DNA from: Myxococcaceae bacterium
GTDB taxonomy: Bacteria > Myxococcota > Myxococcia > Myxococcales > Myxococcaceae
NCBI GenBank assembly: GCA_019694575.1
Contig: JAIBBR010000001.1
Location: 62,001-126,000 of the forward strand
DNA length: 64,000 bases
Direction: 5' to 3'
Below are positions 8,347 to 11,004 of the stretch, in pieces. The first letter of the stretch is position 1. The number at the start of each line of letters is the position of its first letter. A program made the position numbers and the translations under genes. The notes beneath the pieces are model-generated. The model made no database searches and was not told the origin of the DNA. It saw only the letters and a program-made list of their open reading frames with translations.

Positions 8347-9894
8347 TCAGCGGCGACGCACCAGCCAGAAGCCGTTGGCCTGGGCGGCGATGGTTAGCTC
8401 TGAATCGAGTTTAGAACCGAAAATTTGCGCGGGGTGAACGCCGCGCACCAAGAAGTGATCGTAAAAACGGCCCTGGGTTTCGTAATTCATTTGATCAGGC
8501 CGCCACTCTGAAGGGAACGTCGGCGGCGGTTGACTACGATACTTGAGTGGCGAGTGCGGCGTGAGCGCGAAGCTGAAGTTGGTGAGGCCTCCCTTTTCGC
8601 GCGCCAGCACCGTCGAGGCATGGAGAAAAACCGGGTGCGTCATCGCCGAAGACTGGGTGTTGAAGATCAGCCCCATGACTTTGGGCTTGGGTGCTGACGC
8701 CTCGACGAGCGTGCTCAGCGCGCTCGCTTCGGCGTCGAATGTGCGAAAACCGATCGCCAAGGGCACAGCCGTGAGCAGGGCCACGGCGGCTCCGGCGAAA
8801 AGACCGAAACGCGCCCAGCGTTCTTTGAGCACCGGCACGCACAGCACGCACAGCGCGGCGGCCAAATGCGCATAGCGGGTGTTCAGGTAATACATGTAGC
8901 CGCGAATATCGAAGGGCAGGGCGAAATAGAGCCCCAACGCAATGGCGGCCAACGTGAGCAGCCGAAAGGCGGCCGCCGAACGTGGGCGCAGCGCGTCGGC
9001 AGAGCGCGACAACACGCCGAGCAGCGCGGCCAACACCGCCACCCCGGCTGACGCTTTCACCGCCAGTTGATCATTCCCGTTGGGCAGCATGTTGCCCAGC
9101 ACTGAAAAAAATTCAGCCTGGTTCTGCGCGAAGGTCTTGAAGGCCAAGTTTTGCTGCGAGAGCAACGGGCCCCACGCTTTCCACGGTTCTCCCGGGGCGA
9201 TTTCAGAAGGCGCGCCTAGGCGCAAGCCGACCCAGCCGATGAAGAGGGCTGTAGCGGGCAGCACCGAGAGCAGCGCGGGCACGCGCGAGCGCACCCACGG
9301 CCCGGGCGCTACTGACAGCGACATCAGCGCCGGCAACGCCAGGCCCAAGAAGGCAAACACCTGCACGTGAAAGAGCAACACCGCGACGAGCGTGGCCCCG
9401 GTGCAGATCGCCCAACGCCGCCGCTGCGCTTCGTCTTCGAGGGTGCGAATGAAGAAGCCCATCGTCAACAGCGCGAGGGGAATTGCCGCGCAGTAATTGA
9501 TGAAGCCCCAGGCGAAGCTGTCGCCATACGCGAAGGGTACGGTGAGCAGCGCAGGCCACACCGGGCGCTTCATGCTGTGCAGCAAAAACGCGGCGGCGAG
9601 CGGCAGACCGGCGACGTAAGCCGACAAGAAAACGCGGTTCGCCAACTCGAGGGGAAACAGCCAGTTCAACCCGCTGACGGCGTAGTAGTAGCCGAGGTAT
9701 GGCGTGAGCTCTGCGCGGGTGGTGAAGAACTCAGGGTAAAGCGTAGAAGGGTCTGTGAGCCGGTGCAGCACCGAAATCAGGTGCAAGTGCTGCGGCAAAT
9801 CGACCAACGGCAAGGCCTGGGCGGCCCAAAGGGGCGCCACCGCCAGCACGGTGGCTACGGCAAACACCCAGCGCTCGAGGGGGGACTTCAACAA
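8347..9894 (-). CDS. Multi-pass membrane protein, possible glycosyltransferase-like
   Basis: Integral membrane protein of about 515 residues with roughly ten to twelve hydrophobic segments. These include VFAVATVLAVAPLWAAQALP at the N-terminus and further ones through residue 400. The C-terminal 110 residues are soluble and contain DHFLVRG. The layout (acidic residues after the first helix, LVDLPQHLH) recalls GT-C type membrane glycosyltransferases and O-antigen-type proteins, but I cannot place it in a family. No ATG suits the start: the frame is open further upstream, but hydrophobic coding begins at a TTG pair at 9894/9891. That start is uncertain. The gene continues directly into the hypothetical gene downstream. 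Confidence 0.75.
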   Translation of the reverse strand: MLKSPLERWVFAVATVLAVAPLWAAQALPLVDLPQHLHLISVLHRLTDPSTLYPEFFTTRAELTPYLGYYYAVSGLNWLFPLELANRVFLSAYVAGLPLAAAFLLHSMKRPVWPALLTVPFAYGDSFAWGFINYCAAIPLALLTMGFFIRTLEDEAQRRRWAICTGATLVAVLLFHVQVFAFLGLALPALMSLSVAPGPWVRSRVPALLSVLPATALFIGWVGLRLGAPSEIAPGEPWKAWGPLLSQQNLAFKTFAQNQAEFFSVLGNMLPNGNDQLAVKASAGVAVLAALLGVLSRSADALRPRSAAAFRLLTLAAIALGLYFALPFDIRGYMYYLNTRYAHLAAALCVLCVPVLKERWARFGLFAGAAVALLTAVPLAIGFRTFDAEASALSTLVEASAPKPKVMGLIFNTQSSAMTHPVFLHASTVLAREKGGLTNFSFALTPHSPLKYRSQPPPTFPSEWRPDQMNYETQGRFYDHFLVRGVHPAQIFGSKLDSELTIAAQANGFWLVRRR

Positions 9895-10011
9895 GGTGCT
9901 GCTGCGTATACACCGGCTCGAAACCCGAGAGCTGAAAGACGCGTCGCTGCTGGCAAGGGGCTTTTGGCTGGTGTATCTACCCCCTCCAGTTTTCTTTTGA
10001 GGAGGGCTCGC

Positions 10012-10296
10012 ATGCAGACCGCAAACTTCGTCAAAATCGTGGCTTTGGGTGGCGCGATACTGGGTGCGCCGGTCGCGTTTGCCTCCAACGATGTGCTGCC
10101 TGACCTGCCCAGCGCGAGTGAGAAATGCGGCTGCAGCGGTGCCAGTGACTGCACCTGCAAGAAGGGGCAATGCAAGTGCCCGAAGTGCGGCAAACACAAC
10201 AAGGCGCGCATGATTGAGACGTTGAAGGGCCAGTCGTCTGACCCCACGCTGCCGAACACCGCGCGGCTCGACGCCACGGCCGGCGTGTTCATTTAG
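10012..10296 (+). CDS. Small secreted Cys-rich (metallothionein-like) protein
   Basis: Protein of 94 residues with a strong ribosome site (GAGGAGG) before ATG 10012. An N-terminal signal peptide is visible: FVKIVALGGAILGAPVAFAS, with cleavage likely after AFA near residue 24. The mature part has a compact cluster of seven Cys within 21 residues (KCGCSGASDCTC, then QCKCPKCGKH) in C-x-C and C-x-x-C spacing, followed by His. This is what is expected of a metal-thiolate binding peptide, such as metallothioneins, but here it would act in the periplasm or outside. The C-terminal 30 residues have no Cys. It does not match the standard bacterial SmtA pattern, so the metallothionein-like label is by composition only. 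Confidence 0.8.
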   Translation: MQTANFVKIVALGGAILGAPVAFASNDVLPDLPSASEKCGCSGASDCTCKKGQCKCPKCGKHNKARMIETLKGQSSDPTLPNTARLDATAGVFI

Positions 10297-10454
10297 GGCC
10301 CGCGTAGGAATAAGGCGGTCGATGATCAGTGCCGAGGCGCCCGGCGGGCAAGACGCGAGGAGGGAGCATACCCGTTGGTACGTGACCGACGAGCAACGAA
10401 GCCCGCCGGGATGGATCGGCGCTGAGGGCGATCGACTTATTCCTTCGCGGGCCC
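10296..10454 (+). ncRNA. Nested-hairpin structured element (candidate non-coding RNA)
   Basis: The stretch folds back on itself almost completely. Outer stems: GGGCCCGCG (10296-10304) with CGCGGGCCC (10446-10454); AGGAATAA (10306-10313) with TTATTCCT (10437-10444); GTCGAT (10318-10323) with ATCGAC (10431-10436). Inner stems: AGTGCCGA with TCGGCGCT (one G-U), and CCCGGCGGGC with GCCCGCCGGG. Between these lies a core with GGGAGCATACCC and GTTGGT...ACCGAC (one G-U). It lies between convergent genes, its first base being the last base of a TAG stop. The outer stems could be a shared terminator and the inner part an inserted structured RNA. The strand is chosen by the core reading and is not certain. 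No open frame fits it. Confidence 0.65.
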
Positions 10455-10467
10455 TTAACCGCCGCTG

Positions 10468-11004
10468 TTACGCGTTACCCACCAACACCACCCAACCGCG
10501 GGCCATCGCCTCGCGGAAGAATTCTGACAACGCGTGCCGTGCGGCGCTGACGTGGTGCTGGCCGGGGTCGCTCGCCCGCTCTTCGCCGACACTTTTGCCG
10601 ACTTCTAATTCAACCGTGCGGCCACAGCGTTCGCAGCGAATCGAAAGAGGGCGCACGTACGCCACGGGCACCGCGAACCGGCTGCCGCAGTCGCACACCC
10701 AAACGCGGGTCAGCTCGCCCGTCGCTTGTTGCCGGGCCAGCGTCGTCAGTTGATCGGCCAACCGCAACAGCGCCGGCAAATCATTGGGAGGCACCGCGAA
10801 GATCTTGTGCTCTTCGCTTTCTTTCTCGATGCGGCGCACCCGTTCGAAGGCTTTTTCTCCACGAAATTCTGCGCCGGCCAACGCTTCGGCCACCAACGCC
10901 GCGGTCAAGGTGGCGGTAGGCAGCAGCAATTCATCAGCGGTGGGCGCCGGCAGCGGGCGCTTGGTTTTGACCAGTCGAAAAGGGGGCATCGCCGAAAACG
11001 TCAT
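10468..11004 (-). CDS. Zinc-ribbon-containing protein of unknown function
   Basis: Protein of 178 residues, cytosolic by appearance. A possible zinc ribbon lies near residues 104-130: CDCGSRF, then CERCGR, separated by about 19 residues with RPLSIRC. The N-terminal 90 residues are helical and charged. I chose the ATG at 11004, which shares its A with the TGA stop of nadA (TGATG), so translation is probably coupled to nadA. Four more in-frame residues upstream lie inside nadA. I do not recognise the family; a role connected to NAD synthesis is only suggested by position. Confidence 0.75.
   Translation of the reverse strand: MTFSAMPPFRLVKTKRPLPAPTADELLLPTATLTAALVAEALAGAEFRGEKAFERVRRIEKESEEHKIFAVPPNDLPALLRLADQLTTLARQQATGELTRVWVCDCGSRFAVPVAYVRPLSIRCERCGRTVELEVGKSVGEERASDPGQHHVSAARHALSEFFREAMARGWVVLVGNA

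Follow-up and report, generated by a model that had tools for sequence, protein, structure and literature searches.

A short non-autonomous mobile element with a conserved folded core between two convergent genes of a Myxococcaceae bacterium

Between two convergent open reading frames of a Myxococcaceae genome lies a long nested hairpin that begins on a stop codon. An earlier note on this DNA read its outer stems as an old shared terminator and its inner part as a structured RNA, perhaps of the HEARO type, inserted into the loop. The question is whether the structure is such a composite, or one unit that moves as a whole and, if so, what its elaborate fold is for. The window analysed here is a stretch of 64,000 nucleotides; positions refer to it unless a locus is named.

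Extent, edges and copies of the element

The structure that the note had delimited is real and its limits were exact: 10296-10454 forms a 159-base extended hairpin. The plus strand of 10280-10470 folds at -118 kcal/mol, compared with -77.1 ± 4.4 for shuffled sequences (z -9.2; 0/200 as good), and the opposite strand at -101.6 (z -7.7). The predicted outer stems comprise 10, 9 and 6 pairs and the inner ones 10 and about 12, close to the 9, 8 and 6 and the 8 and 10 noted before, and a 30-nt inverted repeat, 87% complementary, was detected independently. The placement between convergent ORFs and the start on a stop codon also hold, with the TAG of the 94-aa plus-strand ORF facing a 182-aa ORF on the minus strand (Table 1). 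By eye, the 94-aa ORF (10012-10296) has a signal-peptide-like start and a good Shine-Dalgarno sequence. The R1 model scores the element at 94.0 bits on the plus strand and 14.5 bits on the minus strand, the window copy being within the R1 training set.

Table 1 Features of the element and its surroundings in the window.
Feature	Positions	Strand	Basis or remark
Whole mobile element, 159 bp	10296-10454	+ (strand with the core in conserved orientation)	Edges, copies, R1
Left target duplication copy, TTA	10293-10295	.	Own-genome copies and window edges
Right target duplication copy, TTA	10455-10457	.	Own-genome copies and window edges
Left outer arm (terminal inverted repeat and stem)	10296-10321	+	Fold, inverted-repeat search
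Right outer arm	10429-10454	+	Fold, inverted-repeat search
Stem P1, 5' strand (partner near 10414-10423)	10326-10335	+	Fold; covariation
Stem P2, 5' strand (partner 10401-10410)	10340-10349	+	Covaries across phylum-level groups
Fixed internal loop, 5' side, AAGACGCGAGGAG (final nine letters part of the search pattern)	10350-10362	+	Pattern search, alignment A3
Apical hairpin P3 (10366-10372 with 10377-10383), covarying	10366-10383	+	Alignment A3, covariation
Fixed internal loop, 3' side, CCGACGAGCAACG (letters set by the search pattern)	10386-10398	+	
Upstream ORF, 94 aa, Cys-rich	10012-10296	+	TAG stop at 10294-10296; no Pfam match
Downstream convergent ORF, 182 aa	10468-11016	-	Ends 14 bases beyond the element; no Pfam match

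The window unit as a whole is one mobile element, with the 3-bp direct repeat TTA on both sides. The TAG stop of the 94-aa ORF is made of the duplicated TTA and the first G of the element, and joining the flanks without the element gives the same 94-aa ORF, ending in TAA instead of TAG. Since the duplications lie outside the outer stems and the ORF is restored on joining, the outer stems belong to the element and the idea of a nested insertion fails. The duplications flank the outer stems in 18 of 20 copies in the own genome, the outer arms are common to copies within one genome, and no T-run terminator is present at the window element. The ATGA at 10322-10325, proposed as the boundary of the insertion, is an unpaired bulge in the stem. 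That 10296-10454 is a real, mobile, non-autonomous element is close to certain; 159 bp is too short for a transposase, so the element has no transposase gene of its own.

The search for other copies that the note had called for was productive, both here and in other genomes, where the core recurs. A 171-base query matched the own genome at 26 further places, two or more of which fall on one truncated copy, and about 25 further element copies are present. Most alike is a near-uniform group in which the eight best matches to locus L003 are 98-100% identical; the window copy shares about 70% identity and the same edges with this group. A truncated relative on contig C41 is 97% identical over 59 bases, and a covariance model built from nine sequences brings in three diverged copies (on C55, C159 and C8) as well as half elements on C164 and C60. 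Identical 3-nt flanks surround a 157-159-base unit in 18 of the 20 own copies that have both ends on the contig and are matched by the end pattern, a count outside which lie five copies running off contig ends and the diverged copies. The flanks are TTA or TAA in 19 of the 20 and GAA once; the two exceptions are L005, which repeats TTAA over four bases, and L014, whose flanks differ. Copies therefore share their edges, a point that the note had asked to have inspected, in the form of 3-bp TTA/TAA repeats; the flanking ATGA that it named is absent.

Several loci are of separate interest. Both half elements (L076 about 1718-1830, at the end of G000:C164; L077 about 60-190, at the start of G000:C60) are cut at the loop CCTAA, beyond which a common CCCGTATCGGTCACCGG is followed by unlike sequence; probably another IS with CCCGTATCGGTCACCGG ends inserted at one spot in opposite orientations. 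Internal deletions in L027 (1575-1637) and L250 (about 1996-2065) have ends like those of hairpin or short-repeat deletions. The copies on C55 and C159 (L073 about 1490-1680; L074 about 1470-1640) form a third own-genome subfamily with other arms, GTACAGCGCCCCATAAATAAGTG.

Distribution and conservation of the core

DNA similarity search of 98 genomes, including the own, gave matches in nine. The short matches that are all G016, G019, G045, G062 and G091 yielded are taken as chance, because the stretches inspected there show neither arms nor core. In G002, G010 and G078 a similar core is combined with outer arms that have no sequence relation, most of them still paired. The R1 model finds the element in 4 of 96 genomes of the family. 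Across the phylum, a strict pattern occurs in 4 of 195 genomes, and the reversed control matches none of those listed. Applied to named species genomes, the strict pattern gives at least 120 stretches. By record title, the inner fold recurs in no fewer than ten phylum-level groups, its arms being unrelated between them. The titles name Actinomycetota (also Acidimicrobiia and Nitriliruptoraceae), Acidobacteria, Verrucomicrobia, Planctomycetota, Bacteroidetes (also Chitinophagales and Saprospiraceae), alpha- and gammaproteobacteria, Myxococcales, Kofleriaceae, Desulfobacteraceae, Thermodesulfobacteriota, Eremiobacterota and Liptonbacteria. The carriers are mostly MAGs. All named isolates that were retained belong to the alphaproteobacteria (Sphingomonas, Novosphingobium, Sphingopyxis, Aureimonas, Porphyrobacter), a match in a Polyangium isolate (L092) having been set aside. 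Three of the 120 pattern loci (L092, L102 and L149) were excluded by eye from the alignments as chance matches within genes or without stems; L102 remains in the automatic counts of lengths, flanks, mismatches and gene orientation. No element was found in plasmids with the L050 and L138 stretches or the consensus core as queries, the consensus core was not found in phages or E. coli genomes, and viral contigs held no match to the strict pattern; as a control, the same core query recovers 106 of the 120 known loci at plasmid database size.

With up to 3 mismatches allowed, the element ends match 118 times in G196 and 96 times in G197, two Desulfobacterales MAGs; this amounts to roughly fifty copies each if most ends are paired. 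G197 also shows a further class of end matches spaced about 180 bp. On a Vicinamibacterales chromosome (OY282382.1; L147 4716-4953), two tandem cores lie 166 bases apart near a tRNA gene, with no detectable outer arms, and the core may thus also exist outside a mobile unit.

Alignment A3 comprises 74 sequences: the window and the 73 of 120 cores left after removal of those more than 85% alike, the cores entering this filter being those with enough flank. The structure tested on it was named by the analyst and has 10 pairs in P2 and 7 in P3. Its cells pair in 83.1% of cases versus 53.8% in shuffles, and its covariation score is 0.701 versus 0.208 ± 0.013 in shuffles, none of 500 of which reaches 0.701; slid structures score 0.11-0.18. 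Double changes occur in 16 of the 17 pairs across the 74 sequences, a count not above that of the shuffles (15.4). The letters of the loop are fixed, in part because the search pattern imposed them; outside the pattern, C10, A12, G13, G14 and G24 (first-sequence numbering) are kept at 90% or more and G62 in all. In the predicted internal loop, 2x2 mismatches follow one another, most of them GA facing GA, separated by single or double G-C pairs; such tandem GA pairs are stable in both RNA and DNA. Across the P2 stem, the fixed G/A-rich internal loop and P3, pairing is kept by compensatory changes while the arms turn over. Covariation in DNA inverted repeats can also come from template switching without selection. 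The core is probably conserved for a single-strand fold. The note's proposal of a mobile structured element with a conserved core is borne out by the further own-genome copies and the covarying stems, and the result that it held would speak against it, neither other copies nor covariation, is the reverse of what was observed.

The elements as wholes fall into two sharp length classes. Among 80 with automatically found arms, 42 measure 154-162 bp (L102 counted among them) and 24 measure 263-280 bp, in a search that permitted a far wider range, and the two classes differ in their arms. Arm pairing is itself not a test, because the search required arms to pair; the length classes and the types of mismatch are. 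The long elements are mostly predicted to form a stem with two branches, and according to the R2 model (42 matches in 30 sources) the second branch is a core on the opposite strand. Such second cores reach E below 0.001 in eight elements (L136, L107, L192, L103, L186, L127, L132, L140) and are weaker in L166, L111 and L194. The two core types are distinct, for R2 barely detects the own genome's main type (L003, E 0.011), and likewise L028 and L030 (E 0.1-0.2). In the 80 elements, identical 3-nt flanks are seen in 19 and a shared TA only in 22; with no more than 19 of 80 duplicated in this way, the target rule is not uniform.

The strand that folds

Mismatches within the predicted stems indicate which strand folds. 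G-U pairs were forbidden in folding, so that G.T and A.C mismatches are found equally, and 1x1 mismatches were counted in 72 elements. Short elements carry 53 G.T against 11 A.C mismatches in their outer arms and 34 against 9 in their cores. The long elements show 16 against 4 in the first core, 4 against 12 in the second branch and 17 against 15 in the outer arms. The first core differs from the second branch with P = 0.002 and the short from the long outer arms with P = 0.003, values that are optimistic because elements of one genome are related. An earlier neutral count over 52 cores had given G.T to A.C ratios of 39 to 7 in P2 and 40 to 20 in P3. The G.T excess tracks the core strand and is reversed at the second core, which argues that a single strand, that of core sense, folds. 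Such a bias is not expected from binding of the double-stranded form and is expected from core-sense single-strand folding, be it of RNA or ssDNA, which this measure does not separate; RNA is somewhat favored. In a trial of replication-strand bias, the single-chromosome genome examined held only two copies.

Movement, alternatives and relation to known systems

Copies of the unit are scattered, carry terminal inverted repeats, are bordered by 3-bp TTA/TAA duplications and are often found at gene ends. Short, without a transposase gene, present in many copies and duplicating its target in 18 of 20 own copies, it has the marks of a MITE. The explanation that we prefer, at a probability of roughly 0.55, is a gene-less MITE-type mobile element with an unusual conserved core, moved in trans, whose fold is a mobility signal. 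Movement would occur as DNA through a cut-and-paste (DDE-type) transposase supplied in trans, and the core, folded in RNA or ssDNA, would be bound by a protein needed for movement or tolerance; it would act in cis as a mobility signal and not as a regulator of the host. Long elements, with their second core on the other strand, may be competent on either strand. It is somewhat more likely than not that the fold benefits the element, in its movement or its tolerance, and not the host.

A partner enzyme was sought at the element ends. Contigs C113 and C62 open with the same sequence of slightly more than 100 bases (99% identity over 123), which closes in the 16-nt element end beside TTA or TAA, with one base changed in C62, and C103 begins with the same 16-nt end, again beside TTA/TAA. 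The repeated sequence beside the shared end at C113 and C62 carries an open frame, which suggests a putative IS sharing the element ends, expected to be flanked by GGGCCCGCC. The body and second end of this putative IS were not seen in the own-genome assembly, and no intact autonomous partner was found there or in stretches from G195, G196 and G197. These stretches held no IS with matching ends, and their single-end places are decayed or deleted elements or ordinary genes. Two frames (33-35 aa) beside shared ends gave one weak match each in plasmids (E 7 and 8) and none to a Pfam family. The second frame had only weak matches beyond the own genome among 60 relatives and 195 genomes of the phylum, the best of them (E 0.08, 46% over 26 aa) with two stops inside. 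Presumably, the target and end types resemble IS5-superfamily rules.

Among the alternatives, an ssDNA element of the REP/RAYT kind, with a HUH (Y1) transposase recognizing the folded core on one DNA strand, survives best and is nevertheless unlikely. The strand-specific fold would suit it, and the existence of forms with one core and with two cores head to head recalls the singlets and dimers of REPs. Against this stand the 3-bp target duplications in 18 of 20 copies, which ssDNA transposition is not known to leave. The window element is also not a single palindrome of 20-40 bp. REP/BIME/REPIN elements with RAYT, as described in PMC3733652, are palindromes at gene ends in single and head-to-head forms in several phyla, all of which has its likeness here; REPs measure 20-40 bp and carry a GTAG or CGTC tag, whereas the present elements measure 159 or about 270 bp, with long paired arms and target duplication.

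Decidedly less probable is an RNA useful to the host, either a bidirectional terminator that has spread or an element for mRNA stability, at the 3' ends of genes. In its favor is position: by hand count, 8 of 20 own copies and 21 of 53 others (which include the window copy again and L102) have the stop of an ORF of at least 150 codons at their junction, compared with 18 stop sites among 95 TTA/TAA sites outside gene interiors of the window, by rough gene calls (P 0.024 and 0.0004). The same enrichment can follow from a TTA/TAA target combined with selection against insertion inside genes, and we read the gene-end position as TTA/TAA-type target plus selection; it does not prove that stop codons are targeted. 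Genes run into the element about equally from either side. For genes that read in, the orientation counts are 13/19 on the 5' side and 12/18 on the 3' side for own copies, and 21/45 and 27/50 for the broad set. This lack of orientation preference speaks against a plain 3'-UTR role, and a sense 3'-UTR RNA was rejected on this ground. Presence is patchy (the 4 of 96 family genomes found by R1), and no intrinsic terminator (GC stem and T-run) was found at the element, the sole site lying upstream, inside the 94-aa ORF. Beside one own copy, L003 1887-1990 (minus strand) gives a near-cutoff Rfam match to Vibrio RNA AS9 (45.6 bits, cutoff 50), which is perhaps the antisense of a conserved gene.

Slightly less probable again are ordinary MITEs in which the shared core is inherited and nothing more, and in which template switching in DNA hairpins, not selection, preserves the likeness of the paired arms. 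Quasi-palindromes are indeed corrected by template switching, and some copies (the C41 copy, L250) bear hairpin-type deletions. However, the internal-loop mismatches are kept, not corrected, the bias of G.T over A.C goes with core sense and reverses at the second core, and the lengths are fixed.

A HEARO or other RNA-guided-nuclease guide RNA, similarly a mobile structured element without its own ORF, can be set aside almost entirely: no Rfam 15 family, HEARO included, reaches its gathering cutoff in the window, HEARO has no match there at E<=10 (three unrelated families alone do so in 9800-11000), the four gathering-score matches in 20 related loci are all RNase P or tRNA, and a TTA/TAA duplication stands in place of an ATGA/GTGA site, so that the note's guess is not sustained. 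A match to MIR1437 (E 0.045, 26.6 bits versus a cutoff of 168) was discarded as a hairpin artefact. The likeness to HEARO and IsrB omega RNA is thus that of mobile, structured elements; the covariance models do not match and the insertion rule differs.

The MITE-type element that we favor has closer company. Bacterial MITEs such as ERIC, NEMIS, RUP, Bcr1 and QMITE2, as described in two papers (PMC3733652, PMC10969869), are gene-less units of 70-300 bp with inverted-repeat ends, target duplications and strong folding, often beside genes, and the present element is like them in all of these respects. Those families are described there in particular taxa, in contrast to one core across many phylum-level groups here, with unrelated ends, sharp lengths and a strand-specific fold. 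The TIR families of TIRYT transposases, as described in PMC3733652, are moderately abundant long inverted-repeat families, some of them grouped on the motif GGGGWSAS and all of them on the tyrosine transposase gene that flanks them; the likeness lies in moderately abundant long inverted repeats and, on a comparison by description only, some overlap is possible. Five core words of 12-13 letters, looked up in 5.39 million PMC papers, led to six, none of which concerns bacterial repeats as judged by title and abstract. The text, as distinct from the figures, of literature on MITEs, REP/RAYT, HEARO and structured RNAs gave no matching description, and an earlier one may exist under another name.

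A broader reading is offered tentatively, at somewhat less than even odds: a pan-bacterial class of mobile folds, neither plain MITE nor REP, in which a strand-specific core of tandem G/A mismatches between short pairs keeps the element alive. A trans-acting machine would recognize this core as RNA or ssDNA, the arms would co-evolve with local transposases, and the two-core form would let either strand serve.

The usual view of MITEs is that they are what deletion leaves of insertion sequences and that their interior holds nothing worth preserving. In this element the interior is conserved between distant bacteria and the ends vary, which makes the hereditary unit of the mobile element look like a nucleic-acid fold. 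The dependence of transposition in trans on a folded RNA or ssDNA signal thereby becomes testable, and genome annotators gain a family absent from Rfam 15: a tiny mobile element that appears to be kept for the shape of its fold.
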